From assembly GCF_018860825.1 (NCBI RefSeq), contig NZ_JAHKPZ010000030.1, forward strand, positions 466,934-530,933: a stretch of 64,000 nucleotides of DNA, read 5' to 3'. Numbering within the stretch: position 1 is the stretch's first letter; every line of letters begins with the position of its first letter. Of this stretch, positions 6,434 through 20,300 are shown in pieces. The notes below the pieces were generated by a model. The model searched no databases, had not been told where the DNA came from, and saw only the letters and a list, made by a program, of their open reading frames with translations. Position numbers and translations under genes: made by a program. This DNA comes from Lacinutrix sp. C3R15 (lineage in GTDB: Bacteria > Bacteroidota > Bacteroidia > Flavobacteriales > Flavobacteriaceae).

Positions 6434-9124
6434 ATGAAAAAAGCTTTAAAAATTTCTGGTATTACAGTACTAATTATTGTGGCAATATTAATTGCCATTC
6501 CCTTTATGTTTAAGTCGCAAATAAAAGACATGGTAAAACGTTTTATTAACGAAAACTTAAACGCTAAAGTAGAATTTAGCGACGTAGGCTTAAGTTTAAT
6601 AAGTAGTTTTCCGCAAGCACATGTTAGTGTAGACGATTTAATAATTACTAATTTTGAACCTTTTAAAGACGAAACTTTTGCAACCGTAAAATCTATTACT
6701 TTTGACATGTCTTTAAAAGAATTATTTAAAAAAGCAACTGATGGACCCATTGTTGTTAACGCCATAAATGTTAACGAAGCCTTAATAACATTAAAAACCA
6801 ATAAATTTGGAGATGTTAATTATGATATTGCTAAAAAAACAGACAGCGAACCAGAAACCGTTAACACAGAAACCGAGTCTAGTTTTAGCTTTGACATACA
6901 AGATTATGCCATAAACAATAGTGCATTCACTTATTTAGATGAGCAGTCTAACATTACATTTTACATCACAGAATTAAACCATTCTGGAAAAGGAACCTTT
7001 TCTGGCAATGTATCAGAATTAGACACAAACACAGAGGCCAGAGTAAGTTTAAGCTTAGATAGCACAGCATATTTAAATAACAATACTATAAAACTAGATG
7101 CTTTAATTGATTTAGATTTAGAAAACAGCAAATACACTTTTAAAGAAAACAAAGCTGTAATTAATCAATTACCATTAGCATTTCAGGGTTTTGTACAAAT
7201 GGTAGATGAAGGACAAAACATTGATATTACATTTGAAAATTCTGGTTCTGATTTTAAAGATTTTTTAGCTGTTATTCCTGAAACATATTCTAAAAACATA
7301 GAAAATGTAGCAACAACCGGAAACTTTAAGATAAAAGGAATGGTAAAGGGCTTAAGTAGTGATACTACTATACCTCATCTAGATATTAATGTAGCATCAA
7401 ACAATGCGTCATTTAAATATCCTGACTTACCAAAAAGCGTAGAAAACATTGTTATAAATGCATCGTTAAAAAACGATGATGGAAACATTGACAACACCTA
7501 TTTAAACTTAGAAACTTTAAATTTTAAAATAGATCAAGATGTTTTTAAATCTTCTGCTACATTAAAAAACATAACCAAAAACATGTTAGTTAATGCTAAT
7601 ATTGATGGTGTTTTAAATTTAGCAAACATTACAAAAGCCTATCCTGTAACATTAGACAAAGAATTAAGTGGAATTTTAAAAGGAAAACTACACACTTCTT
7701 TTGATATGAATGCGCTAGAAACCAACGCATACCAACGTATTAAAAACGATGGAAATGTAAGTATCACTGATTTTATTTTTTCAAGTGAAGATATTGTTAA
7801 CCCTATTCATATTAACAACGCAGATATTACCTTTAGCCCAGGAACAGTTTCCTTAAATAGTTTTGATGCAAGAACAGGTACTAGCGACTTAAATGCTACT
7901 GGAAACATTCAAAATTTATTAGGATTCTTACTAAGTGATGGTAATTTAAAAGGAAATTTTAATGTAAAATCTAATGCTTTTGCTGTAAATGATTTTATGG
8001 TTGCAGAAACCGAAACGGCTTCTAATAACAAAACCACCACAGCAGAAGAATCTCTTAAAATTCCTGCGTTTTTAGACTGTACCATTCAAGCAGATGCAAA
8101 AACTGTTTTATATGATAATTTAACCCTTAAAAATGTAAAAGGAACTCTAAAAATAAAAGATGAACAAGCTACTTTACAAAACCTTACTTCTAATTTGTTT
8201 GATGGAGAGATTACAGTTTCTGGTTTGGTAGATACCAAAGAGAAAACACCGCTTTTTAATATGGATCTTGGTATAAAAGATTTTAATATTTCAGAATCTT
8301 TTAAAGACTTACAATTACTAAAAAGCTTAGCTCCTATTGCAAAAATACTACAAGGAAAATTAAACACAACCATTAATCTTTCGGGAGCTTTAGACCAAAG
8401 TTTTTCGCCTGACTTATCTACAGTTTCTGGTAATGCTCTTGCCGAATTATTAACAACAAATATTTCTTCTGAAACCGCTCCTTTACTAAGCAAACTAGAT
8501 GGCGCTTTTAGCTTTATAGATTTTAATAAACTTGACTTAAAAGACTTAAAAACCAAACTAGATTTTAAAGACGGAAAAGTAAACGTAAAACCTTTTGATA
8601 TTAAATACCAGGACATTAATATTACTGTTGATGGTTCACATGGTTTCGATAAAAGCATGGCTTATAATGCCGTTTTACAAGTACCTGCAAAATATTTAGG
8701 AAGCGATATTAACCAACTAATAGGTAAAATAGATGATCCTGAGGTAAGCAATATTACCATTCCGGTAACCGCAACCATTGGTGGTACTTTTACAGCACCA
8801 ACCGTTAAAACAGATTTAACAAGTGGTATTACCAATTTAACAAAACAGTTAATTGAAATACAAAAGAAAAAACTTTTAAATCAAGGCTCACAAGAACTCC
8901 AAAACTTAATAAGTGATGCTATTGGAGGCACTAAAAATGATTCGACAAAAACACAAACAAGTAATCCTATTAAAAATGTACTAGATGATATTACAGGAAA
9001 TAATAGTACAAATACAGAATCACCAACAAAAAACACAACGGTTGAAGAAGGTGTAAAAAATATTCTAGGTGGTCTTATAAAAAATAACAAGAAAAAAGAA
9101 ACCGTTAAAGACTCTGTAGAATAA
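6434..9124 (+). CDS. AsmA-family protein (envelope biogenesis)
   Basis: This 896-residue protein has one N-terminal membrane helix (about residues 4-25, ISGITVLIIVAILIAIPFMF) followed by a long repetitive beta-rich region. The first part has the AsmA signature (basic segment after the helix, then VEFSDVGLSLISSFPQAHVSVDDL). The second half (about 600-830) resembles the AsmA C-terminal region, with LSGALDQSFSPDLSTVSGNA and VNVKPFDIKYQDI. AsmA-like proteins are thought to be bridge-type lipid-transport proteins between inner and outer membrane. The end is a low-complexity Asn/Thr/Lys tail that may be shortened by a frameshift (see 9123-9188). Start chosen at MKKALKIS because the upstream codons overlap the promoter. 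Confidence 0.87.
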   Translation: MKKALKISGITVLIIVAILIAIPFMFKSQIKDMVKRFINENLNAKVEFSDVGLSLISSFPQAHVSVDDLIITNFEPFKDETFATVKSITFDMSLKELFKKATDGPIVVNAINVNEALITLKTNKFGDVNYDIAKKTDSEPETVNTETESSFSFDIQDYAINNSAFTYLDEQSNITFYITELNHSGKGTFSGNVSELDTNTEARVSLSLDSTAYLNNNTIKLDALIDLDLENSKYTFKENKAVINQLPLAFQGFVQMVDEGQNIDITFENSGSDFKDFLAVIPETYSKNIENVATTGNFKIKGMVKGLSSDTTIPHLDINVASNNASFKYPDLPKSVENIVINASLKNDDGNIDNTYLNLETLNFKIDQDVFKSSATLKNITKNMLVNANIDGVLNLANITKAYPVTLDKELSGILKGKLHTSFDMNALETNAYQRIKNDGNVSITDFIFSSEDIVNPIHINNADITFSPGTVSLNSFDARTGTSDLNATGNIQNLLGFLLSDGNLKGNFNVKSNAFAVNDFMVAETETASNNKTTTAEESLKIPAFLDCTIQADAKTVLYDNLTLKNVKGTLKIKDEQATLQNLTSNLFDGEITVSGLVDTKEKTPLFNMDLGIKDFNISESFKDLQLLKSLAPIAKILQGKLNTTINLSGALDQSFSPDLSTVSGNALAELLTTNISSETAPLLSKLDGAFSFIDFNKLDLKDLKTKLDFKDGKVNVKPFDIKYQDINITVDGSHGFDKSMAYNAVLQVPAKYLGSDINQLIGKIDDPEVSNITIPVTATIGGTFTAPTVKTDLTSGITNLTKQLIEIQKKKLLNQGSQELQNLISDAIGGTKNDSTKTQTSNPIKNVLDDITGNNSTNTESPTKNTTVEEGVKNILGGLIKNNKKKETVKDSVE

Positions 9125-9188
9125 AAAAAAAGTTGAATCTATAAAAGACAAGTTCAACAAACTATACGCTACAGGTACACAAGAGTAA
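9123..9188 (+). other. Possible frameshifted C-terminal tail of the AsmA gene
   Basis: The AsmA frame stops at TAA 9122-9124, at the edge of a run of nine A. In the frame shifted by one base, reading continues without a stop as KKKVESIKDKFNKLYATGTQE and ends at TAA 9186-9188. The residues are charged and resemble the preceding Lys-rich tail. This could be the original C-terminus cut off by a one-base change, a sequencing error at the homopolymer, or chance. Confidence 0.4.
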
Positions 9189-9290
9189 AAATGGCATCTA
9201 AAAAAACGACTTTTTAATTGAATTTTAGTTTTTTATCCATTTTTTAAGAAAAAAAAGTAAATAAATATTATAAAATAAAAATAATTAATT

Positions 9291-9298
9291 TACTTTTG
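9291..9298 (+). promoter_or_regulatory. -7 promoter element (TACTTTTG) of rpsU
   Basis: TACTTTTG matches TAnnTTTG and lies 23 bases before the rpsU ATG. The upstream region is almost pure A/T and lacks a clear TTTG at -33. The predicted leader is short (about 15 bases) and contains no GGAGG-like sequence. Confidence 0.5.
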
Positions 9299-9320
9299 CA
9301 TCCACAATTAAAGAATCATT

Positions 9321-9515
9321 ATGTTAAGAATAGAAATAAAAGAAGGCGAAAATATAGAACGTGCTTTAAAACGTTACAAGCGTAAACACAGAAATGTGAA
9401 AGTTATGCAGAATTTAAGAGAAAACCAGTTTTTCACAAAACCATCTGTAAAACGTAGACGTCAAGTACAAAAAGCATCTTACATTCAAGGTTTAAGAGAC
9501 GCTGAAGATATTTAG
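9321..9515 (+). CDS. rpsU: Small ribosomal subunit protein bS21
   Basis: This 64-residue basic protein of the 30S subunit platform shows family sequence throughout: MLRIEIKEGENIERALKRYK, KVMQNLRENQFFTKPSVKRR and KASYIQGLRDAE. In Bacteroidota, bS21 helps bury the 3' end of 16S rRNA so that ribosomes ignore Shine-Dalgarno sequences; the tyrosine implicated in flavobacterial bS21 corresponds to Y54 here. The gene has its own promoter-like element and a strong terminator, so it seems monocistronic. Confidence 0.97.
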   Translation: MLRIEIKEGENIERALKRYKRKHRNVKVMQNLRENQFFTKPSVKRRRQVQKASYIQGLRDAEDI

Positions 9516-9540
9516 TAGTTACTTCTTTATACATATATAA

Positions 9541-9574
9541 AAAAACACGCTTTTATTTAAAAGCGTGTTTTTTT
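9541..9574. terminator. Bidirectional terminator between rpsU and the DUF2797 gene
   Basis: A perfect 14-bp stem (9541-9554 with 9559-9572, core ACACGCTTTT) with loop ATTT is flanked by A on the left and T on the right. It can end both rpsU and the convergent DUF2797 transcript. Confidence 0.85.
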
Positions 9575-9584
9575 GTTTATGTAT

Positions 9585-10379
9585 TTAATCTACTCCTAGC
9601 TCTACAACCAAACCTTCGTTTGATCGTATATTAAAAACGGTTTGATCTTCAAAAATCAGGTATTGTCCTTTTATGCCAACTAGCTTTCCAGAATAACTTC
9701 CTTCTTTTTTAATATTTAAACTTTTTGGTTTTAAAGGATATTGTAAAACCGGAAACTCTATATTAGTTTCCGTATTATTTTCAATATAATACTCTTTTGC
9801 TTCGTCTGGAATAAACTCTTTTAAGCGCTCTCGCCATTCTACCAAATTTTCATCTACCAAATCATTCTTTAACATGGTTCGCCAATTAGTTTTATCTGCA
9901 ACATAGTCTTTTAGAGCAACTTCGGTAATTCCTGCTAAATATCTATTTGGCACTTCTACAATTTCAATAGCTTCATGCGCTCCTTGATCTATCCAACGTG
10001 TTGGCACTTGGCTTTTTCTAGTAACACCAACTTTTACATTGCTAGAATTAGCTAAATATACGATATGTGGTTGCAGTTGTACTTTCTTTTCATAAGCCAA
10101 ATCTCTGTCTTCTTTATCTAAATGCGCAGTACTTAATTCTGGACGCATAATCCAATCTGCAGCTTGCGGTATATCAAAAAAGCAACTCTTACAAAATCCC
10201 TGTCTGTAAATCACTTTATTTAAACCACAGCTTAAACATTGATACTTCACAAATTTCAAATGTATGTTTTTGTCTATCAACTGGTTCATGTTTAAAAAAT
10301 CATTTTCAAACACTAAATAATATTGAATAGGTTTTGTAAATTCGGTTTCCATTTTTGTTAAAACACCTTGGTAGTACAT
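9585..10379 (-). CDS. DUF2797 protein with four-Cys zinc site and GIY-YIG-like core
   Basis: This 264-residue cytoplasmic protein resembles the DUF2797 family of unknown function. A probable zinc site is formed by C48, C51, C63 and C66 (CLSC and CKSC). Residues about 105-160 read like a divergent GIY-YIG nuclease core: HIVYL, then VKVGVT at 115-120, an Arg at 128 and a Glu at 153, in the order expected for that fold. No partner gene gives a clue, as it lies alone between two terminators or intergenic gaps. The family call is fairly secure from pattern; the nuclease idea is inference. Confidence 0.72.
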   Translation of the reverse strand: MYYQGVLTKMETEFTKPIQYYLVFENDFLNMNQLIDKNIHLKFVKYQCLSCGLNKVIYRQGFCKSCFFDIPQAADWIMRPELSTAHLDKEDRDLAYEKKVQLQPHIVYLANSSNVKVGVTRKSQVPTRWIDQGAHEAIEIVEVPNRYLAGITEVALKDYVADKTNWRTMLKNDLVDENLVEWRERLKEFIPDEAKEYYIENNTETNIEFPVLQYPLKPKSLNIKKEGSYSGKLVGIKGQYLIFEDQTVFNIRSNEGLVVELGVD

Positions 10380-10516
10380 AAAAAAAAAGTCTTATTTTTA
10401 TCATTGAAGATACTTAGTAAAAATCGTGTGATTTTAAGTGCATTTCACCCTTAAAATTTTAGCAATTAATCGCATTTTTACAAGCAAATCTAATTAAGAA
10501 TAAAGATAGTATAAAT

Positions 10517-12031
10517 ATGCCAATTCCTATAGTCAATTCTATTGCTTCCTGGTTTTTAAAAAAACGTTTTCACCAAATCGATTTATTTTTAAAATACCCA
10601 AATGAAGTACAAACAGAGTTATTACTAGAACTTATAGAAACCGCTAAAGATACTGAAATTGGGAAGCAATACGATTTTGCTTCTATTAAAAACTATAAGC
10701 AATTTGCAGATCGTATACCCATTTCTTGTTACGAAGATGTACAACCTAGTATAGAGCGCTCAAGAAAAGGTGAAAATAATATTTTTTGGCCAACACCTAT
10801 TAAATGGTTTGCAAAATCTAGCGGAACCACAAATGCTAAAAGTAAATTTATTCCTGTAAGCACAGACTCTTTAGAAGATTGTCATTATGCAGCAAGTAAA
10901 GATTTACTGTGCATGTATTTAAATAATAATGAAAACTCACAACTCTTTACTGGTAAAAGTTTACGTCTTGGCGGAAGCAAAGAACTATATAAAGAAAACG
11001 GAACTGTTTTTGGGGACTTAAGTGCTATTTTAATTGACAACATGCCTTTTTGGGCAGAATACAGCAGCACACCTAGCAGCAAGGTTTCTCTTATGAGTGA
11101 TTGGGAACATAAAATGCAAGCAATTGTAGACGAAACCATTAACGAAAACGTTACAAGTCTAGCAGGTGTTCCTTCATGGATGCTAGTTTTACTAAATAAT
11201 GTTTTAGAAACCACAGGCAAAAATAGCCTACACGAAGTATGGCCAAATTTAGAAGTGTATTTTCATGGTGGTGTAAGTTTTACTCCATACCAACAACAAT
11301 ACAAAAACATACTACCTAATAACGATTTTAGGTATTATGAAATTTATAATGCTTCAGAAGGTTTTTTTGCTATTCAAGACCAAAACAATTCTAGCGAATT
11401 ACTTTTAATGCTAGACTACGGAATTTTCTATGAATTCATTCCTATGGATACTTACGGAAGTAAGGAACAAAAAATCATTCCGCTTTCTGAAGTAGAATTA
11501 GACAAAAACTACGCTGTTATAATAACAACAAACGCAGGATTATGGCGTTACAAAATTGGTGACACCGTTAGGTTTACATCTATTACACCTTACAGAATAA
11601 AAGTTTCTGGTCGTACCAAACACCATATAAATGTTTTTGGGGAAGAACTAATTATTGAAAATGCAGAAAACGCACTAAAAGAAGCATGTATAAAAACAGC
11701 TTCTGAAATTGTAGATTATACTGCTGCTCCTATTTTTATGAAAGAAAAGGAAAAGGGATCTCATGAATGGTTGATAGAATTTAAAACACCTCCTAAAGAC
11801 CTCAACAAATTTAGTGAACTGTTTGACAATGCTTTAAAAACCGTAAATTCTGATTACGAGGCGAAACGTTTTAACAACCTTACACTTAATAAACCAACAG
11901 TACATATCGCTAGAGAAAAACTATTTTATGATTGGCTAAAACAAAACAATAAACTTGGCGGACAGCATAAAATACCAAGACTATCAAACTCTAGAGATTA
12001 TATGGAAGAATTAATAAAATTGAATGAATAG
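10517..12031 (+). CDS. GH3-family acyl-adenylating enzyme
   Basis: This 504-residue protein resembles the GH3 family (ANL superfamily), known in plants for joining amino acids to jasmonate or auxin through an acyl-adenylate. The ATP-binding loop is SSGTTNAKSK at residues 101-110. The second motif is YNASEGFFAIQ near 275, and the third is LWRYKIGDTVRF near 345, followed by KVSGRTKHHINVFGEEL. The length is slightly below plant enzymes. Bacterial GH3 proteins are widespread in Bacteroidota, but I know of no firm substrate. It is probably a single-gene unit, ending before the terminator at 12165-12195. Confidence 0.87.
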   Translation: MPIPIVNSIASWFLKKRFHQIDLFLKYPNEVQTELLLELIETAKDTEIGKQYDFASIKNYKQFADRIPISCYEDVQPSIERSRKGENNIFWPTPIKWFAKSSGTTNAKSKFIPVSTDSLEDCHYAASKDLLCMYLNNNENSQLFTGKSLRLGGSKELYKENGTVFGDLSAILIDNMPFWAEYSSTPSSKVSLMSDWEHKMQAIVDETINENVTSLAGVPSWMLVLLNNVLETTGKNSLHEVWPNLEVYFHGGVSFTPYQQQYKNILPNNDFRYYEIYNASEGFFAIQDQNNSSELLLMLDYGIFYEFIPMDTYGSKEQKIIPLSEVELDKNYAVIITTNAGLWRYKIGDTVRFTSITPYRIKVSGRTKHHINVFGEELIIENAENALKEACIKTASEIVDYTAAPIFMKEKEKGSHEWLIEFKTPPKDLNKFSELFDNALKTVNSDYEAKRFNNLTLNKPTVHIAREKLFYDWLKQNNKLGGQHKIPRLSNSRDYMEELIKLNE

Positions 12032-12164
12032 CAACATTTACAACAATACCTTATTACAACGAGAATTACCTATGCTTCATCTAAAACACTTTTACATTTA
12101 TTAATATAATAACTACCTTGGTGTGCTATTAGTAGATAATTTTATAAAATAATTATCGTTATAC

Positions 12165-12195
12165 AAAAAAAACCAAGCATATTGCTTGGTTTTTT
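12165..12195. terminator. Bidirectional terminator between the GH3 gene and the MerR gene
   Basis: AACCAAGCA (12171-12179) pairs with TGCTTGGTT (12183-12191) around a TAT loop. An A-run on the left and a T-run on the right let it act for both convergent transcripts. Confidence 0.8.
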
Positions 12196-12206
12196 ATTTA
12201 CAGGCT

Positions 12207-13076
12207 TTATTTTTTAAGACAACTTATTAAATCCTTTGGATGCGATAAATGAAAAATTCTACTATCTCCTTCCACTTTTTCTAAACCTATAGGGTTACCT
12301 GAAAAAAGAAGTGGCACATCTTCTGCCTGATTTAATATAGTAGCTATAGTAGTATTAATTGTATCTTCGGCTGGTGTAACAAACATGGTTAACAGGTATT
12401 CTGGCTTAATTTCTTCAACCACTTGTTTTATATTATCAATAGGTACATTTTGTCCTAAATAATACACTTTCCAACCCATTTCTCTAGCTATATAATACGC
12501 AAGAAGCAACCCAATTTCATGGTGTTCGCCTTCAACTAGAAACATTAATATACTAGGACTATCTTTATGAGGATAAGGAAGTAAATCTATAGAAGCAAAC
12601 ATTTTTTTCTTAATTAAATTAGAAATAAAATGCTCTTGGGCAGGCATTACTTTATTCATTCCCCAAAGTACTCCTACTTTATTTAAAAAAGGATATACTA
12701 ATTCAGTAATCGTTGCTAAAAGCCCATTTTTAACTATATGTGTTCTAAGGAGTTCATTAAATCTAACCTCATCCATATCAAGCATACTAATAACTAGCGC
12801 ACTAATTTCATCTTCATAATCACCTTCTTCTAAACTATCTGAAATGATTTTATAAATTTCATCATCAGACATTTTATCTATTTTAGAAATTCTATACCCT
12901 TTTCTAGTTAAGACACTTATATTCAGTAATTTTTTTAATTGTAAATCTGAATAATACCTAATATTTGTATCTGTTCGTTCTGGATCTAAAAAATTATATC
13001 TAGTCTCCCATTTACGTAAAGTATGCGCTTTAACACCTGTTAAAGTTACTATTTGGGCCATTGTATATCTACTCAT
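12207..13076 (-). CDS. CarH/LitR-like MerR regulator with B12-binding light-sensor domain
   Basis: This 289-residue DNA-binding protein has three parts. An N-terminal MerR winged helix (about 1-72) contains YTMAQIVTLTGVKAHTLRKWE. A helical bundle (about 85-165) follows, then a Rossmann-type cobalamin domain (about 173-289). Both signatures of CarH photoreceptors are present: W138-x9-E148-H149, which covers the adenosyl group, and E184-x-H186-x-x-G189, with H186 as the expected lower cobalt ligand. In Myxococcus and Thermus, CarH represses carotenoid genes in the dark and is released by light. Here the gene is divergent from a fasciclin gene and next to crtIBZ, and repeated motifs lie between. 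Light and B12 response is inference from these residues. Confidence 0.9.
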   Translation of the reverse strand: MSRYTMAQIVTLTGVKAHTLRKWETRYNFLDPERTDTNIRYYSDLQLKKLLNISVLTRKGYRISKIDKMSDDEIYKIISDSLEEGDYEDEISALVISMLDMDEVRFNELLRTHIVKNGLLATITELVYPFLNKVGVLWGMNKVMPAQEHFISNLIKKKMFASIDLLPYPHKDSPSILMFLVEGEHHEIGLLLAYYIAREMGWKVYYLGQNVPIDNIKQVVEEIKPEYLLTMFVTPAEDTINTTIATILNQAEDVPLLFSGNPIGLEKVEGDSRIFHLSHPKDLISCLKK

Positions 13077-13094
13077 GTCTAATTATTTACCAAA

Positions 13095-13108
13095 CAAAGT
13101 TAAACAAA
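13095..13108 (-). promoter_or_regulatory. Predicted operator copy 1, overlapping the regulator's own -7 box
   Basis: On the minus strand this reads TTTGTTTAACTTTG, close to two other copies at 13142-13155 and 13194-13207. Within it TAACTTTG (13102-13095) is a perfect -7 box for the MerR gene, about 19 bases before its start codon. Binding here would give autoregulation. The expected -33 TTTG is not clear. Confidence 0.5.
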
Positions 13109-13141
13109 AAAAATAAACACACTAAATATTACAAAAAAAAT

Positions 13142-13155
13142 TTTGTCTAACTTTT
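13142..13155 (+). promoter_or_regulatory. Predicted operator copy 2 of the CarH-like regulator
   Basis: The sequence TTTGTCTAACTTTT matches the shared pattern TTTGTyTAA(A)CTTT. It lies about 12 bases upstream of the -33 element of the fasciclin promoter, a plausible second binding site. Confidence 0.45.
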
Positions 13156-13166
13156 ACATTATTTTA

Positions 13167-13197
13167 GTTGACAAATAGAAATATTTTTATATATTTG
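13167..13197 (+). promoter_or_regulatory. Promoter of the fasciclin (and perhaps crt) transcript
   Basis: GTTG (13167-13170), exactly 19 bases, then TATATTTG (13190-13197) is a near-perfect Bacteroidota promoter. Transcription would start about 10-20 bases before the fasciclin ATG at 13228. Operator copy 3 overlaps the -7 box, so a bound regulator would block it. Confidence 0.65.
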
Positions 13198-13207
13198 TCT
13201 AAACTTT
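13194..13207 (+). promoter_or_regulatory. Predicted operator copy 3, overlapping the fasciclin -7 box
   Basis: TTTGTCTAAACTTT shares the motif of copies 1 and 2 with one extra A. Its first four bases are the last four of the -7 box TATATTTG. A further partial inverse, CTAGACA, lies at 13219-13225 just before the start codon. Confidence 0.5.
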
Positions 13208-13227
13208 AAACATTTAAACTAGACATT

Positions 13228-14643
13228 ATGAAAACGAAATTCTTTTTTATCGCACTTTTTAGTCTATCCTTATTAACAATTTCATGTAGTAATGATGACG
13301 ATGGCTCAAACAACACAACTACAGAACCTAACATTGTAGAATTAGCTGTAGCTAATCCAGATTTAAGTTCTTTAGTAGCTGCATTAACTAGAGCAGACGG
13401 AAACTTAACATCAGTATTAAGTGGTAACGGACCATTTACAGTATTAGCACCTACAAATGATGCCTTTGCGGCTTTCTTATCTGCTAACGGATTTGCTTCT
13501 TTAGAAGCTGTACCAACAGATGTATTATCACAAATACTTTTAAATCACGTAATCATGGCTGATGTATCATCAAGCGACTTAATTGGTATGGGTTCTGGAT
13601 ACACTTCAGGAAGCGCTAGTGGTGCTGACGGCTTAAATATTAGTATTTACTTTGATACAAGTAGCGGTGTAACATTTAACAATGCAGGAACAGTTACAAC
13701 AGCAGATGTAGATGCTTCAAACGGAACCATTCACGTAATTGACGGCGTTTTAGGCTTACCAACTATAGTAGACCATGCAGTGGCAAACGCAAGTTTTTCA
13801 AATTTAGTTGCTGCTTTAGGTGCCGCAGATGGTGATTTAGTAAATGTGTTAAGTGGCGACGGACCATTTACAGTTTTAGCACCAGACGACAATGCTTTTA
13901 GCACATTTTTAAACGGAGCAGCATTAGGAGATGTTGACACAGCTGTTCTTTCTCAAATATTACTAAACCATGTAATTATTGGGTCTACAGTAACTTCATC
14001 AGCTTTAGTAGATGCTGGAGCAGGATACACCAATACAGGTGCATCAGGACCTGCTGGAAATGCAATGAGTCTATATTACAATACATCAAACGGAGTAGTA
14101 TTTAATGGAATAGCAACAGTTACTCAAGCAGATGTGGTTGGTACAAATGGTATTATTCACGCTGTAGACACTGTAATTGATATACCAACAGTAGTAACTT
14201 TTGCAGCAGCAGACCAAACCTTTTCTACATTGGTTCAAGCATTAACAACATTAACACCTGCTACAGATTTTGTTTCTATTTTATCAAGAACAGAAATTGG
14301 AAATGCAGATATGATAGACCCAAGCTTTACAGTATTTGCTCCAACAAATGATGCCTTTGCAGCTTTAGCAGCAATTCCTGAAGAAGCTGCTTTAACGCAA
14401 GTACTATTACACCACGTAATTAAAGAAGCAAACATTACTTCAAGCATGCTTAATAATCCTGGTGATACAACTGCTGCAACTATTGAAGGAGACAACATTA
14501 CTATAACACTACCTGGTACAGGTGATAATATTGCAGATATAACAGATGGATCTGGCGCTACAGATATAGGAATTATAGCAGTAGATGTTCAAGCTGGAAA
14601 TGGTGTAATACATGTAATTAACAAAGTAATGATTAATAACTAA
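13228..14643 (+). CDS. Lipoprotein with three fasciclin (FAS1) domains
   Basis: This 471-residue protein has a lipoprotein signal (LTISC, lipidated C20) followed by SNDDD, an acidic stretch like the surface-export signal of Bacteroidota lipoproteins. Three FAS1 domains follow at about residues 35-178, 179-324 and 325-471. Each repeats GPFTVLAPTNDAF-like and ILLNHVI-like motifs and ends in an IHVID-like strand. FAS1 domains mediate adhesion or bind small ligands; some FAS1 proteins bind carotenoids. The gene is divergent from the CarH-like regulator and 81 bases upstream of crtI, so it may be co-expressed with pigment synthesis. Confidence 0.9.
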   Translation: MKTKFFFIALFSLSLLTISCSNDDDGSNNTTTEPNIVELAVANPDLSSLVAALTRADGNLTSVLSGNGPFTVLAPTNDAFAAFLSANGFASLEAVPTDVLSQILLNHVIMADVSSSDLIGMGSGYTSGSASGADGLNISIYFDTSSGVTFNNAGTVTTADVDASNGTIHVIDGVLGLPTIVDHAVANASFSNLVAALGAADGDLVNVLSGDGPFTVLAPDDNAFSTFLNGAALGDVDTAVLSQILLNHVIIGSTVTSSALVDAGAGYTNTGASGPAGNAMSLYYNTSNGVVFNGIATVTQADVVGTNGIIHAVDTVIDIPTVVTFAAADQTFSTLVQALTTLTPATDFVSILSRTEIGNADMIDPSFTVFAPTNDAFAALAAIPEEAALTQVLLHHVIKEANITSSMLNNPGDTTAATIEGDNITITLPGTGDNIADITDGSGATDIGIIAVDVQAGNGVIHVINKVMINN

Positions 14644-14673
14644 CACCAAGCTAAATCAGCGTATTTAACTGAT

Positions 14674-14710
14674 AAATAGACCGATAGCGTTTTTTGTTGT
14701 CGGTTTATTT
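14674..14710 (+). other. Intergenic hairpin without T-run between the fasciclin gene and crtI
   Basis: AAATAGACCGA (14674-14684) pairs with TCGGTTTATTT (14700-14710), 11 bp with one G-T pair. The loop is 15 bases, and no T-tract follows. It could be a weak terminator, an RNA-processing site or a stability element that separates fasciclin from crt expression without blocking read-through. Confidence 0.45.
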
Positions 14711-14724
14711 AATTAAATTATACC

Positions 14725-16194
14725 ATGAATTTGAAAAAAATTGTAATAATAGGTTCTGGATTCTCCTCACTATCTGCATCGTGCTATTTAGCTAGCAAAG
14801 GTTTTGATGTCACTATTTTAGAAAAAAATAAAACAGTTGGCGGAAGAGCTAGACAGTTAAAAAAAGAAGGATTTGTTTTTGATATTGGTCCCACTTTTTA
14901 TTGGATGCCTGATGTGTTTGAACGTTTTTTTAATGATTTTAACACCTCTACCAAAGACTTTTACAATCTACACAAACTAAAACCTGCATACCAAATTTAC
15001 TTTGGAAAAAAAGATTCTATTAGTATTACAGATAACTTTGAAGCGATTAAAAACACCTTTGAAAACATTGAAAAAGGTAGTGCAAATAAACTACAACAGT
15101 TTATTGATAAAGCACAAAAAAACTACGATATTGCTATAAAAGATCTAGTTTACAAACCTGGAGAGCACGTTTTTGAAATTATAAACAGTAAAACTATTTT
15201 AAAGTTATATGAGTTTATTTTAACTATTAAGAAACAGGTTTCCGGTTATGTAAAAAACAAAAAACTGCAGAAAATTTTAGAATTTCCAGTCTTGTTTCTT
15301 GGCGCCAAACCAAGTAATACTCCCTCTTTTTACAATTTTATGAATTATGCCGATTTTAAATTAGGCACCTGGCATCCTGAAGGAGGCATGTATGAAGTTG
15401 TAAACGCAATGCATAGTCTCGCTACAAGTTTAGGTGTAAATATTATTACCAATTGCGCAGTAAAACAAATAAACACAGAAAACAATAAAGTAATTAGTGT
15501 TACCACTAGTAAAAAAAATTATGCTTGCGACATTTTATTAAGCGGAGCAGATTACCACCATACAGAAACCTTACTACCAAAAGAACTAAGACAATACACT
15601 GAAAACTATTGGAACAAAAAAACCTTTGCTCCTTCTGCCTTATTATTCTATGTTGGATTTAACAAAAAACTAAAAAACGTTTCGCATCATACTTTATTTT
15701 TTGACACTGATTTTGATGCACATGCAAAAACAATTTACGACACAAAAGAATGGGCAGAAAAACCTTTGTTTTACGCTAGCTTCCCTAGTATTACAGATGC
15801 TTCATCAGCGCCTCAAGGTAAAGAAGCGGGTATTTTTTTAATTCCTATTGCTCCAGATGCAGAAGACACACCAGAAATTAGAGAACACTACTTTAAACAA
15901 CTTATAGAACGCATTGAAAAAATGACTGGTGAAACTATTAAAAACAACATTCTTTTTAAAGAATCTTATTGTGTAAAAGACTTTAAGGAAGATTACAATT
16001 CTTATAAAGGGAATGCTTATGGTTTGGCAAATACTCTAACACAAACACATGTACTTAGACCAAAGCTAAAAAGTAAAAAAGTTTCTAATTTATATTTCTG
16101 CGGACAATTAACAGTTCCAGGACCAGGAGTTCCTCCTTCATTAATTTCAGGTAAGATAGTAAGTGATTTAATTTTAAAACACAGCATAATATGA
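14725..16194 (+). CDS. crtI: Phytoene desaturase CrtI
   Basis: This 489-residue FAD enzyme converts phytoene to lycopene. The N-terminal nucleotide-binding motif is IIGSGFSSLSASCYLA (residues 6-21), in which the usual third glycine is Ser, and is followed by VGGRARQLKKEGFVFDIGPT. The C-terminal carotenoid-oxidoreductase signature is LYFCGQLTVPGPGVPPSLIS (about 458-477). It is the first crt gene, and crtB starts four bases before its stop, so the two are translationally coupled. The number of desaturation steps cannot be read from sequence, but the downstream cyclase implies lycopene. Confidence 0.95.
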   Translation: MNLKKIVIIGSGFSSLSASCYLASKGFDVTILEKNKTVGGRARQLKKEGFVFDIGPTFYWMPDVFERFFNDFNTSTKDFYNLHKLKPAYQIYFGKKDSISITDNFEAIKNTFENIEKGSANKLQQFIDKAQKNYDIAIKDLVYKPGEHVFEIINSKTILKLYEFILTIKKQVSGYVKNKKLQKILEFPVLFLGAKPSNTPSFYNFMNYADFKLGTWHPEGGMYEVVNAMHSLATSLGVNIITNCAVKQINTENNKVISVTTSKKNYACDILLSGADYHHTETLLPKELRQYTENYWNKKTFAPSALLFYVGFNKKLKNVSHHTLFFDTDFDAHAKTIYDTKEWAEKPLFYASFPSITDASSAPQGKEAGIFLIPIAPDAEDTPEIREHYFKQLIERIEKMTGETIKNNILFKESYCVKDFKEDYNSYKGNAYGLANTLTQTHVLRPKLKSKKVSNLYFCGQLTVPGPGVPPSLISGKIVSDLILKHSII

Positions 16195-17027
16195 AAGCGT
16201 TATTTGATACTTCCAGTTTAAAATGTAGCAAAATTGTTACCAATAGCTATAGCACATCCTTTTCTTTGGGCATTAAATTATTTGCACCATCAATACGCCC
16301 TGCAATCTATGCTATTTATGGATTTGTACGTTATGCAGATGAAATTGTAGATTCTTTTGAAGCATATCCTCAAGAAGAACTATTCTATGATTTTGTTACC
16401 GATTACCAAAAAGCATTAGAAAGAAAAATTAGTTTAAACCCTATTATTAATTCGTTTCAAGAAGTTGCACATAAATATCATCTACAAAACTATGCCGAAG
16501 ATTTTTTAAAACGAATGGAAGCAGATTTAAAAGTTACAGATTATACCACAAAAGAGGCATATGAAAACTATATATATGGTTCTGCAGATGTAGTAGGTCT
16601 AATGTGTTTAAGAGTATTTGTAAATAATGACGATAAAAAATTTGAAGCACTAAAAGCATCTGCAACCCATTTGGGGTCTGCATTTCAAAAAGTGAATTTT
16701 TTACGAGATATTAAAGAAGATACAGAAAACTTAGGACGCTCCTATTTTCCTAATTTAAACACCAACTCTTTAAATAACGCTACGAAACAAGAAATAATAA
16801 AAGACATAGAAAAAGATTTTCATGAAGCATATAAAGGCATCATCAAATTACCTATAGAAAGTAGACTTGGTGTATATATAGCATATAGATACTATTTAAA
16901 ACTTTTAAAGAAACTGAAAAAAGCAGATTCTGAAAAGATTTTAAAAGGAAGAATTAGAATATCTAACTCCTTAAAATTATTTATTCTTACTAAATCGTAT
17001 ATACGATATAAGTTAAATGCTTTTTAA
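16191..17027 (+). CDS. crtB: Phytoene synthase CrtB
   Basis: This 278-residue squalene/phytoene synthase joins two geranylgeranyl diphosphates into phytoene. Both Asp-rich Mg-binding motifs are present: DEIVD at residues 50-54 and DIKED at 173-177, the latter in NFLRDIKEDTENLGRSYFP. The ATG overlaps the crtI stop (ATGA). No geranylgeranyl diphosphate synthase gene is in this window, so the substrate must come from elsewhere. Confidence 0.95.
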   Translation: MKALFDTSSLKCSKIVTNSYSTSFSLGIKLFAPSIRPAIYAIYGFVRYADEIVDSFEAYPQEELFYDFVTDYQKALERKISLNPIINSFQEVAHKYHLQNYAEDFLKRMEADLKVTDYTTKEAYENYIYGSADVVGLMCLRVFVNNDDKKFEALKASATHLGSAFQKVNFLRDIKEDTENLGRSYFPNLNTNSLNNATKQEIIKDIEKDFHEAYKGIIKLPIESRLGVYIAYRYYLKLLKKLKKADSEKILKGRIRISNSLKLFILTKSYIRYKLNAF

Positions 17028-17055
17028 ATTTTAAACATATTAAGTAACTTACAAT

Positions 17056-17514
17056 ATGATTATTATACAATACATACTAATTACAATAGCCACTTTTATT
17101 TGCATGGAAGCGGTTACATGGCTTACACATAAATATGTCATGCACGGATTTTTATGGTATTTACACGCAGATCACCACCAACCAAAATATCCGCATGCTT
17201 TTGAAAAGAATGATGCTTTTTTTGTAATTTTTGCCATTCCTAGTATCTTACTATTATACTTTGGACTACTACCAAACTTAAACTTTATGTTCTTTATTGG
17301 CTTAGGTATTTTCTTTTATGGTGTTTGTTATTTTTTAATACATGATGTACTTATTCACCAACGTTTTAAATGGTTTAAAAATACCAAAAACAAATACCTT
17401 ATAGGATTACGAAAAGCACACAAGGTACACCATAAACATTTAGGAAAAGAAGAAGGGGAATGCTTTGGAATGCTGTTTGTACCAAAAAAATACCATAAAA
17501 TTTTTAAAAAATAA
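17056..17514 (+). CDS. crtZ: Beta-carotene hydroxylase CrtZ
   Basis: This 152-residue di-iron membrane hydroxylase of the fatty-acid hydroxylase superfamily adds hydroxyl groups to both beta rings to give zeaxanthin. The histidine clusters are HKYVMH (about 25-30), HADHH (37-41), HDVLIH (96-101) and HKVHHKH (122-128). Membrane helices lie at about 3-22, 52-72 and 77-95. It starts 28 bases after crtB and ends three bases before the cyclase gene. No crtW ketolase is nearby, so zeaxanthin is the expected end product. Confidence 0.93.
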   Translation: MIIIQYILITIATFICMEAVTWLTHKYVMHGFLWYLHADHHQPKYPHAFEKNDAFFVIFAIPSILLLYFGLLPNLNFMFFIGLGIFFYGVCYFLIHDVLIHQRFKWFKNTKNKYLIGLRKAHKVHHKHLGKEEGECFGMLFVPKKYHKIFKK

Positions 17515-17517
17515 TTC

Positions 17518-18213
17518 ATGCAACCATACACCTATCTTCTTATAGATTTTGCTTGCATTAGCATTCCTTTTTTAGCTAGTTTTTATAAAAAACACGCGTT
17601 TTACAAAGAGTGGCTACCTTTTTTTAAAGCAAACATAATTATTGCTTTACTATTTATTGTATGGGATTCTATTTTTACAAACATTGGTGTTTGGGGTTTT
17701 AACACAGACTATTTAACAGGCTTTCATATAGGCAATTTACCTATTGAAGAAATTCTATTTTTTATCTGTATTCCGTATTGCTGTGTTTTTACTTTTTTTG
17801 CTTTAAAACATATTATAAAAAAGAATCCTTTAGAAAAAACTGCGTCTGCTTTAAGTTATTTATGTATACTAGTGTTTGGTATAGTAGGGCTTTTACACAC
17901 AGAAAAACTATACACTTCTATTACGCTTTTAAGCACTTCTATTTTCTTGATATATTTAAAAGTTAAAAAAGTAAACCTCTCTTATCATTATTTAACTTTC
18001 TTTTTAATTCTACCTTTCTTTTGTATTAGTAATGGTATACTTACTGGAAGTTTTTTAGTTAAAAAACCAATCGTTTGGTATAATAATGCAGAAAATTTAG
18101 GAGTACGAATAAGTAATATTCCTATTGAAGATTCTATTTATGGTATGCTTCTTATTTTTATGAATATTGAGTTATACCGTTATTTTAAAAACAAAAAAAC
18201 CATTTATAAATAA
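17518..18213 (+). CDS. Fused lycopene cyclase (CrtYc-Yd type)
   Basis: This 231-residue membrane protein of about seven helices consists of two tandem cyclase domains of about 100 residues, like the heterodimeric CrtYc/CrtYd of actinobacteria joined into one chain. Each half has the signature NLPIEE (P75-E78) or NIPIED (P202-D205) at the start of a helix. It closes the ends of lycopene to beta-carotene, the substrate of CrtZ. It is the last gene of the crt run; its final codons lie within the transcription terminator. It is unrelated to the FAD-dependent CrtY. Confidence 0.9.
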   Translation: MQPYTYLLIDFACISIPFLASFYKKHAFYKEWLPFFKANIIIALLFIVWDSIFTNIGVWGFNTDYLTGFHIGNLPIEEILFFICIPYCCVFTFFALKHIIKKNPLEKTASALSYLCILVFGIVGLLHTEKLYTSITLLSTSIFLIYLKVKKVNLSYHYLTFFLILPFFCISNGILTGSFLVKKPIVWYNNAENLGVRISNIPIEDSIYGMLLIFMNIELYRYFKNKKTIYK

Positions 18214-18230
18214 CTTTATAAATGGTTTTT
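18195..18230. terminator. Bidirectional terminator between the crt operon and clpX
   Basis: A perfect 16-bp stem (18195-18210 with 18215-18230, core ACCATTTATAAA) has loop TAAC, an A-run on the left and a T-run on the right. Its left arm forms the last codons of the lycopene cyclase. Confidence 0.85.
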
Positions 18231-18251
18231 TATACTTACAAAAACTAAAAA

Positions 18252-19484
18252 TTAAGAAACAGCCTTTAGTTTTTTAATGGTTGTTTTAGTAAGTTTTTCT
18301 TCTGCATAAGCTTTAGTTACATTTAAACTTTTCTCGTTGCTACCTGGTAATTCAAACATAGCATCTGTTAAAATTTCTTCGCAAAGCGAACGTAAACCAC
18401 GAGCTCCTAACTTATACTCTATTGCTTTATCAACAATAAAATCTAAGGCACCATCTGTAATGCTAAATTCAATATCATCCATTTCAAACAATTTCTTATA
18501 TTGTTTGATGATTGCATTTTTAGGTTGTGTTAAAATAGCTCTTAAGGTTTTTGCATCTAAAGGATCCATGTAAGTTAACACAGGAAGACGACCAATAATT
18601 TCTGGTATCAATCCAAAATCTTTTAAATCTTTAGGTATAATATATTGTAGTAAATGGTTTTGATCTACAACAGTATCACTCATTGATGCGCTATAACCTA
18701 CTGCTTGCATGTTTAATCTTTTAGAGATTACACGTTCTATACCATCAAAAGCTCCTCCAGCTATAAATAGTATATTTTCGGTATTTACTTCAATAAATTT
18801 TTGATCTGGATGCTTACGCCCTCCTTTTGGTGGTACGTTAACAACAGTTCCTTCTAAAAGTTTTAGTAAAGCTTGTTGTACACCTTCACCAGAAACATCA
18901 CGAGTTATAGATGGATTATCACTTTTTCTAGCAATTTTATCTATTTCATCAATAAAAACAATTCCTTTTTCTGCTTTTTCTAGGTTGTAATCTGCAGCCT
19001 GCAATAATCTGGTTAAAATACTCTCTACATCTTCACCAACATAACCAGCTTCTGTTAAAACAGTAGCATCTACAATTGCTAATGGTACGTTTAGCATTTT
19101 AGCAATGGTTTTAGCCATTAAGGTTTTTCCTGTTCCTGTTTGCCCAACCATAATGATATTTGATTTTTGAATCTCGATATCATCATCACTTGGTGGCTGT
19201 AATAACCTTTTGTAGTGGTTATATACTGCAACAGACATTACTTTTTTTGTAGATTCTTGCCCAATTATATATTCGTCTAGAAAGGAATTTATTTTTTGTG
19301 GTTTGCGTAAAACTAATTCTGCAGAAAGGTCACTATTATCTGTTTGCTTAGATTCTTCTATAACAATACCATGTGCCTGCTCAATACAACGATCACATAT
19401 ATGCGCATCTAATCCTGCAATTAATAAATTGGTTTCTGGCTTTTTACGTCCACAAAACGAACACTCTAAATCTTCTTTTGCCAT
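18252..19484 (-). CDS. clpX: ATP-dependent Clp protease ATP-binding subunit ClpX
   Basis: This 410-residue AAA+ unfoldase feeds proteins to ClpP. The N-terminal zinc-binding domain has C8, C11, C30 and C33. Walker A is GQTGTGKT (114-121), Walker B is IVFIDEIDK, and the pore region includes GYVGED and GGRKHPDQ. The loop that docks on ClpP reads VGY where E. coli has IGF. It is transcribed after clpP and tig on the same strand, with 141 bases between clpP and clpX, so partly separate expression is possible. Confidence 0.97.
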
Positions 19485-19625
19485 TTTTCAAGTTATGAAT
19501 TAAAAATTACGAGTTAAAAGCTTTCACTCTTACTTATAACTTTTACTTAATTTTTTAAATTCAAGAAAACCAACAGTTTTTTTTGATACTACTCAAAACA
19601 ACTTTCATTTTCTACTTGACTATTT

Positions 19626-20300
19626 TTAGCTTCTAACTAAAATCTCATCAATCATTCCGTACTCTTTAGCTTTATCAGCTTTCATCCAGTAGTCACGGTC
19701 ACTATCTGCATACACTTTGTCGTAATCCTGCCCAGAATGTTTACTAATAATATTATAAAGTTCTTCTTTTAATATTAAAATTTCACGAGCAGTAATTTCT
19801 ATATCACTAGCTTGCCCTTGTGCACCACCTAAAGGTTGGTGAATCATAACACGCGAATGTGTTAAACCACTACGTTTTCCTTTTTGTCCTGCACATAATA
19901 AAACAGCTCCCATTGATGCTGCCATTCCTGTACAAATAGTTGCAACGTCTGGCTTAATAAATTGCATGGTATCATAAATACCTAGTCCTGCATATACACT
20001 TCCTCCTGGAGAGTTTATATATATTTGAATATCTTTATTAGCATCTGTACTTTCTAAGAACAATAATTGTGCCTGAATGATATTAGCAACTTGGTCATTA
20101 ATACCTGTTCCTAAAAAAATGATTCTATCCATCATTAAACGCGAAAACACATCAAAAATAGCGATGTTCATTTGGCGTTCTTCAATTATATTTGGTGTCA
20201 AGTTAGTTGGGTACATGCTACTAATAATCTTGTTATAGTAGGTACTGCTAATTCCTTGATCTTTTATTGCGAATTTTTCGAATTCTTTTCCGTAATCCAT
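19626..20300 (-). CDS. clpP: ATP-dependent Clp protease proteolytic subunit ClpP
   Basis: This 224-residue serine protease forms the double-ring chamber that works with ClpX. The catalytic triad is S129 (GMAASMGA), H154 (VMIHQPLGG) and D203 (SDRDYW). The [16 protein letters not shown] substrate-channel segment (about 96-111) is intact. The N-terminal stretch of about 45 residues before the mature-like core may be a propeptide. A hairpin separates it from tig upstream. Confidence 0.97.

Follow-up and report, generated by a model that had tools for sequence, protein, structure and literature searches.

The locus considered here lies in a 64,000-nucleotide stretch of the Lacinutrix sp. C3R15 genome (contig NZ_JAHKPZ010000030.1, positions 466,934 to 530,933; hereafter the window), where a gene encoding a CarH-like MerR regulator and a fasciclin-carotenoid gene cluster diverge from a shared intergenic region of 151 bases (13077-13227). 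Three predicted inverted-repeat operators span this region, and it is now evident that they belong to a real, conserved operator and regulon organized around a CarH-like protein in several orders of Bacteroidota. The relevant features of the window are as follows:

12207..13076, minus strand: CarH-like MerR regulator of 289 amino acids, with a MerR_1 helix-turn-helix (residues 4-71), a B12-binding_2 four-helix domain (93-159) and a B12-binding Rossmann domain (176-262)
13076..13106: operator O_R, TGTCTA (13076-13081)-N19-TAAACA (13101-13106), running from the regulator start codon to its putative -7 box and kept in relatives
13095..13102, minus strand: TAACTTTG, putative regulator -7 box
13144..13173: operator O1, TGTCTA (13144-13149)-N18-TTGACA (13168-13173), placed by alignment, its right half-site being the -33 element
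13167..13170, plus strand: GTTG, -33 element of the fasciclin-crt promoter, 19 bases ahead of TATATTTG
13190..13197, plus strand: TATATTTG, -7 element of the fasciclin-crt promoter, sharing bases with the O2 left half-site
13196..13225: operator O2, TGTCTA (13196-13201)-N18-TAGACA (13220-13225), running from the end of the -7 element to just before the fasciclin ATG
13228..14643, plus strand: fasciclin-domain protein of 471 amino acids with three domains (PF02469, three stretches), first gene of a predicted operon
14725..16194, plus strand: crtI-type phytoene desaturase (NCBIfam CrtID, 727 bits)
16191..17027, plus strand: crtB-type phytoene/squalene synthase (PF00494)
17056..17514, plus strand: crtZ-like hydroxylase of the fatty acid hydroxylase family (PF04116), the crtZ name being inferred from context
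17518..18213, plus strand: lycopene cyclase of the CarR-domain type (profile matches)

The crtI score exceeds the cut-off of 640 for CrtID, a bifunctional phytoene desaturase/3,4-desaturase, and the gene stands beside those for the crtZ-like hydroxylase and the lycopene cyclase.

Flavobacterial promoters follow the consensus TTG...TAnnTTTG, ordinarily with a spacer of 19 bases. A first-pass annotation of the window had described three copies of a 14-base motif as repeated operators over both divergent promoters, the first overlapping TAACTTTG of the regulator and the third overlapping TATATTTG of a GTTG (13167)-N19 promoter. The copies are indeed located within the 151-base region, at 13095-13108 (reverse), 13142-13155 and 13194-13207, both boxes are found as described, and the mapped positions support a divergent autoregulatory layout with operators overlapping both promoters. 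What required revision was the repeating unit, which is a half-site arranged in inverted pairs separated by N18 or N19, such that there are six half-sites rather than three. The additional three are conserved, have the opposite orientation and occur at the regulator start (13076-13081), in the -33 box (13168-13173) and immediately before the fasciclin ATG (13220-13225). O2 begins 52 bp after O1, which corresponds to about five helical turns. The half-site TnnACA of the published CarH unit nAnnTnnACAn, or nnnnTnnACAn (as given in passages of PMC8156234 and PMC9304148), is encountered at all six conserved places, and the outer A of the unit is present in four of them (13076, 13101, 13144 and 13220). 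The 14-base motif alone proves nothing, because its window-wide count (23 with two mismatches, 33.9 expected from shuffles) does not exceed chance; it is the clustering, geometry and conservation that stand above chance. TGTCYA-N18/19-TNRACA has three plus-strand matches in the entire window, which are O_R, O1 and O2, and the narrower TGTCTA-N18-TNGACA, found twice in the intergenic region, appeared at least once in just 1 of 20,000 dinucleotide shuffles and twice in none. An Rfam scan of 9000-20000 found no riboswitch or other RNA.

The first-pass annotation had named conservation of its motif beside orthologous regulators as one of the checks to be made, and such conservation is confirmed both in aligned relatives and in counts from two larger sets of loci. 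An alignment of nine orthologous intergenic regions contains six conserved elements of alternating orientation. Among 32 regions between a regulator and a fasciclin or crtI gene (35 loci less three duplicates, some from close relatives), inverted half-site pairs are separated by N18 in 36 cases and N19 in 30, with no other spacing occurring more than three times. Successive operators are similarly regular in their placement, at 52 bp in 15 cases, 53 bp in three and 66-68 bp in 14. A tandem 11-bp direct-repeat operator was also considered for these 32 regions and rejected, as same-strand TnnACA spacings of 11 or 22 bp are absent from all of them and the inverted N18/N19 arrangement is found instead. 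In 25 regulator-fasciclin/crtI loci of other genomes (L031-L056 without L051, whose region exceeds 330 bp), 49 N18/N19 pairs occur in 4,376 intergenic bp versus four in the remaining 259,922 bp of the same loci; 23 of the 25 loci contain such a pair, the exceptions being L052 and L055. A second type of locus, represented by 53 examples (L058-L110), has in many cases the order regulator, extracytoplasmic function (ECF) sigma factor, crtI. TTGTYYA-N18-TRRACAA lies upstream of the regulator, sigma or crtI gene in 26 of these, with 32 sites in 35,724 bp versus three in 491,332 bp, and among spacings of 6-30 the N18 pairs number 32, N19 10, N16 one and N30 one. The same gene order, a regulator followed by an ECF sigma factor and crtI with the operator often ahead of the sigma gene, can be seen in many Bacteroidota, in L168 (G049), L211 (G039) and L213 (G055) as well as L058-L110. 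This arrangement suggests a light cascade, for which a fasciclin gene would have been substituted within the window's clade. In four sigma-type loci from Algoriphagus and Marivirga (L078, L090, L099 and L103), a pair of operators 44 bp apart precedes the ECF sigma gene, which is a second fixed twin spacing as compared to the 52-53 bp of the fasciclin type.

The site also tracks the regulator from genome to genome. Among 60 related genomes, a regulator match at E<1e-30 is present in 41 and absent from 19 (weak matches occur in three of the 19); the exact composite site TTGTYYAA-N16-TTRRACAA is present in 26 of the 41 and none of the 19 (Fisher p 9e-7), totaling 56 exact sites versus six for the reversed pattern. 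In a broader set of 247 genomes from the phylum, 55 encode the regulator (E<=1e-20) and 46 carry the site, with both in 37, the site alone in nine and neither in 183 (37/55 versus 9/192, p 5e-22), these p-values, like the preceding one, taking no account of shared ancestry. The 55 regulator-bearing genomes hold 86 sites (10 reversed), whereas the other 192 hold nine (11 reversed). When the spacer was varied from 4 to 28 in 12 site-bearing genomes, N16 accounted for 36 of the 75 forward matches listed (82 in all) and the next spacing for five. Scans with a single motif or a loose pattern were tried and discarded, since their overall counts do not exceed those for shuffled sequence or the reversed pattern; the exact composite site is the one pattern that discriminates.

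To judge what these sites control, 51 stretches at sites (L168-L218, including two overlapping pairs) were retrieved together with six stretches of the window's genus (L132-L137), with simple open reading frame calls of at least 70 amino acids and neighbors named by Pfam for representatives and otherwise by eye. Of 54 exact sites examined among the 56, 53 are intergenic, and 50 of these are no more than 111 bp from the closest start codon to either side; the remaining one, within an open reading frame of G056, was dismissed as chance. The neighbors include crtI (8 loci), fasciclin-domain proteins (14 loci, two by Pfam), ECF sigma factors (three genomes), the regulator itself (G049), TetR-ABC1-SDR operons, photolyase/cryptochrome, DUF2452 with a photolyase-type protein, TspO/MBR, CIA30, and SRPBCC-like and GLPGLI-like (Porph_ging) proteins, while some neighbors are uncharacterized. 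In the window's own genome (G000), a site one base from exact at C35:354022 heads a photolyase operon with the order TetR, ABC1 kinase, SDR, small protein, SDR, GPx-like, TspO-like, SRPBCC-like, photolyase and a last small gene (several names by eye). In G000, G001, G002 and G005 its TGTCTA-N18-TAGACA is unaltered, whereas G003 departs from it at one base; four of the five regulator-bearing congeners aligned thus keep it (the alignment comprised six congeners, with G004 left out). Also dismissed as chance were the one-mismatch sites C4:50175 and C39:64897 of G000, which are inside or at the edge of open reading frames, and the N19 matches C4:172129 and C29:1027.

Several further genes behind such sites were encountered. 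In G002 (L137, contig C25), a second site precedes a DUF2452-like gene by 226 bp; next comes a 372-amino-acid photolyase-type protein (FAD_binding_7 only) whose best matches in five other congeners searched have at most 30% identity. Secreted proteins with repeats of the form C-ADAGTLTA...YTIHTLVYD (by eye) follow sites in three genera (L132, contig C8 of G000; L173, G023; L184, G025); the two scanned, L132 and L173, had no Pfam match. Possibly, these constitute a light-controlled surface protein family. Proteins of about 140 amino acids are found directly downstream of sites in two genera (L187, G019; L197, G031), and the one scanned, L187, likewise had no Pfam match.

Based upon the architecture, conservation, regulator association and regulon content observed above, we infer DNA binding by the regulator, adenosylcobalamin (AdoCbl) dependence, release by light, and repression rather than activation. 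The regulator is, quite probably, an AdoCbl-dependent dark repressor that controls a photoprotection regulon through an inverted-repeat operator in many Bacteroidota. Dimers loaded with AdoCbl, or a dimer of dimers, would in darkness occupy the inverted half-sites TTGTCTAA-N16-TTAGACAA (N18 when counted between the hexamers TGTCTA and TAGACA), and the three operators of the window would cover the regulator's promoter and start together with the -33 and -7/+1 regions of the fasciclin-crtIBZY promoter, thereby excluding RNA polymerase. Upon illumination, the Co-C bond would be broken and the protein would leave the DNA, allowing expression of both the pigment operon and the regulator. The photolyase operon (TetR-ABC1-SDR-...-TspO-SRPBCC-photolyase) would presumably be under the control of the same regulator. 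Consistent with this reading, an adenosyltransferase (PF01923) is encoded by all 11 genomes searched, including those of the window and G006.

Several observations weigh against this reading. Besides the shared ancestry underlying the association statistics, 15 of the 41 regulator-bearing genomes lack the exact site, nine of the 192 genomes without the regulator carry it, and 27 of the 53 sigma-type loci have no site upstream of the regulator, sigma or crtI gene. The window's genome itself has no exact TTGTYYAA-N16-TTRRACAA, its own sites being one or two bases off, and looser patterns in this genome do not rise above the reversed control (6+5 versus 16+10; 12 versus 17; 71 versus 95); across 25 genomes the loose pattern is mixed, with some over and some under their own control. 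A potential natural control, the siteless photolyase operon of the congener without the regulator (G006), was set aside, as the ABC1 gene behind the site has also been lost there and the comparison says little; setting it aside leaves the probability of the main reading unchanged, since that depends on half-site spacing and on the association with the regulator. Within the protein, the position of His132 in the CarH of Thermus thermophilus (TtCarH) is occupied by Gly139, with His in just one of 110 regulators compared, and of the classic B12 motif D/ExHx2G/P-x41-SxT/V-x22-27-GG the ExHxxG part is present, while M231-F-V233 and S259-G260 deviate from SxT/V and GG.

The mode of control bears directly upon the first alternative, in which the same protein and the same sites would serve an activator or dual regulator that remodels the promoter upon a change in light or B12. 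TAnnTTTG overlaps the 53 exact intergenic sites in sense orientation in 26 cases and antisense in eight, as compared to a mean of 6.0 with shuffled spacers and flanks, and these boxes take preferred places relative to the sites, at position 17 (12 matches), -4 (10) and 6 (five). Occlusion of RNA polymerase is favored by this phasing and, in the window, by the presence of the -33 element within O1 and of the -7 box end within O2. Sites over the -33, -7 and start regions, with phased -7 boxes at 26 of 53, are what occlusion would look like, and in published accounts the characterized CarH/LitR proteins are repressors. MerR proteins are nonetheless described mostly as activators of long-spacer promoters, and the photolyase operon has no TAnnTTTG over its site in G002 nor, by eye, in G000. 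The fasciclin promoter has a 19-base spacer as well, although this length is ordinary in flavobacteria. Taken together, we regard activation as unlikely.

A second alternative retains binding of the operators by this protein and changes what it senses, so that the signal would be the level of B12, a different corrinoid or a partner protein in place of light. The regulator combines the MerR helix-turn-helix, B12-binding_2 and B12-binding domains in a single protein, which is the domain set of class I CarH/LitR, and the photoreceptor signatures reported by the first-pass annotation are borne out in the 289-amino-acid translation (W138, E148 and H149 of Wx9EH; E184, H186 and G189 of ExHxxG); the CarH-type fold is likewise supported. 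Furthermore, the light signature GxxW, EH and GxxxP, together with ExH, is retained in 107 of the 110 regulators; the Gly of GxxH is retained in 58, including the window protein. Favoring a non-light signal are the degenerate second and third parts of the B12 motif, the missing equivalent of His132 in 109 of 110 proteins, and the precedent of PmlR2, a class II LitR described in passages of PMC9758184 as the effector of a LOV protein. His132 is the upper ligand in the light state of TtCarH and an H132A variant fails to monomerize, yet CtMerR is light-responsive with Arg at this position (passages of PMC11796333). It follows that His132 is a mark of TtCarH chemistry and not of the family, since the residue varies among other light-responsive proteins. 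Since Gly139 replaces His132 and TtCarH H132A stays unmonomerized, the release step is probably unlike that of TtCarH. With photoprotection genes as targets and a light-induced crt cluster reported for Chryseobacterium lacus (PMC7064467), a signal other than light seems rather improbable.

The third alternative assigns the sites to a co-occurring factor, such as the TetR protein of the ABC1 operon, the crtI-linked ECF sigma factor or an unknown regulator. Association does not equal binding, TetR heads the operon in some genomes and the ECF sigma factor adjoins the regulator in many. Against this, the site persists where the operon has no TetR gene (G001 and G005), sites precede the regulator gene itself, the half-site fits that of CarH, and a symmetric site is unlike a sigma promoter. 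Residue 22 of the recognition helix pairs with the half-site sequence as well. In Lys22 genomes all 10 half-sites, from three congeners, read TTGTC, versus TTGTT for 90 of 94 in Ile/Val22 genomes (eight further half-sites from three genomes, all TTGTT, were left out as their residue was unread). In a tree of 110 regulators, a single clade with support of 100/100 unites the 36 of the window's kind (L002-L009, L031-L057 and the window), and the window regulator falls inside a Lys22 subclade of 27 (100/96). The tree needs a single Lys22 change, so this pairing was rejected as a case of protein-DNA coevolution and is retained as weak support, being one evolutionary event. Ownership of the sites by another factor is accordingly a slim prospect. 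Lastly, a mere flavobacterial promoter element (TAnnTTTG, TTG) combined with AT-rich chance is scarcely credible, as the overlap of two of six half-sites with the -33 and -7 elements and the lack of enrichment of the 14-base motif in the window are set against equally conserved half-sites outside promoter elements (13076, 13144 and 13220), and it is already contradicted by the fixed N18/N19 spacing and the absence of the exact site from all 19 regulator-less genomes.

Carotenoid synthesis is known to be induced by light in flavobacteria. The present analysis names a candidate light regulator, defines its operator to the base and predicts its target genes in many Bacteroidota, so that control by light and B12 can be tested directly in an abundant marine group. 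According to PMC7064467, the flavobacterium C. lacus becomes yellow upon illumination, its 8 induced genes include four crt genes, and the authors, having found no car/lit operon, proposed an unknown regulator. The Bizionia MerR protein MliR was considered as the regulator described here and rejected, since it is described as having 109 amino acids and no effector domain. The first-pass annotation had held the operator to be undescribed in flavobacteria, a claim that survives for its geometry and shared regulon, which look new, and fails for the half-site, which already fits the published CarH unit. Our search of titles and abstract openings in the open-access literature found no published description of this operator, from which its absence is not established. 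On balance, we lean towards a B12 photoreceptor regulon of the Bacteroidota's own: a CarH-like clade bound as antiparallel pairs on TTGTYYAA-N16-TTRRACAA instead of tandem repeats, switching without the His132 ligand, and jointly controlling carotenoids, fasciclin surface proteins, photolyase/cryptochrome operons, itself and often an ECF sigma factor. This would be the light regulator not found earlier in light-pigmented flavobacteria.

When compared to known systems, the regulator most obviously parallels the CarH proteins of T. thermophilus and Bacillus megaterium. They share a MerR DNA-binding domain followed by four-helix and B12 Rossmann domains, the Wx9EH and ExHxxG motifs, a TnnACA half-site with its outer A, operators placed over promoter elements and a carotenoid target. 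Their operators are described in passages of PMC9304148 and PMC8156234 as three to four tandem 11-bp direct repeats, unlike the inverted N18/19 pairs found here, and T. thermophilus CarH has His132 where the window regulator has Gly. We do not file the window protein as CarH proper, because the tandem-operator test failed, as did that of the NCBIfam CarH equivalog NF052513 (104.9 bits versus a cut-off of 400); it would nonetheless work in the manner of a CarH, and we place it as a CarH-like protein within the broader CarH/LitR group. The class II LitR proteins PplR1 of P. putida and PmlR2 of P. mendocina are similar in their paired half-sites and in a regulon of photolyase, cryptochrome, folE and SDR genes, the light-induced Pseudomonas genes being phrB, cryB, folE and SDR, but they differ in their TRTACA-N12-TGTAYA sites, in having one of the two B12 domains and in their LOV partner, and a crt operon is not mentioned in the passages concerned (PMC9758184). 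CarA/CarH of Myxococcus xanthus and other myxobacteria repress crt genes, as is proposed for the window regulator, and a -35 TTGACA lies inside a CarH repeat much as TTGACA does at 13168, whereas the myxobacterial systems are distinguished by 11-bp repeats (DR/dr), an inverted repeat in some Myxococcus operators, and a CarS and ECF pathway (passages of PMC9304148). These comparisons raise the questions of how the same CarH half-site can be recognized as tandem repeats in certain phyla but as inverted pairs in another, and how the protein leaves DNA without His132.

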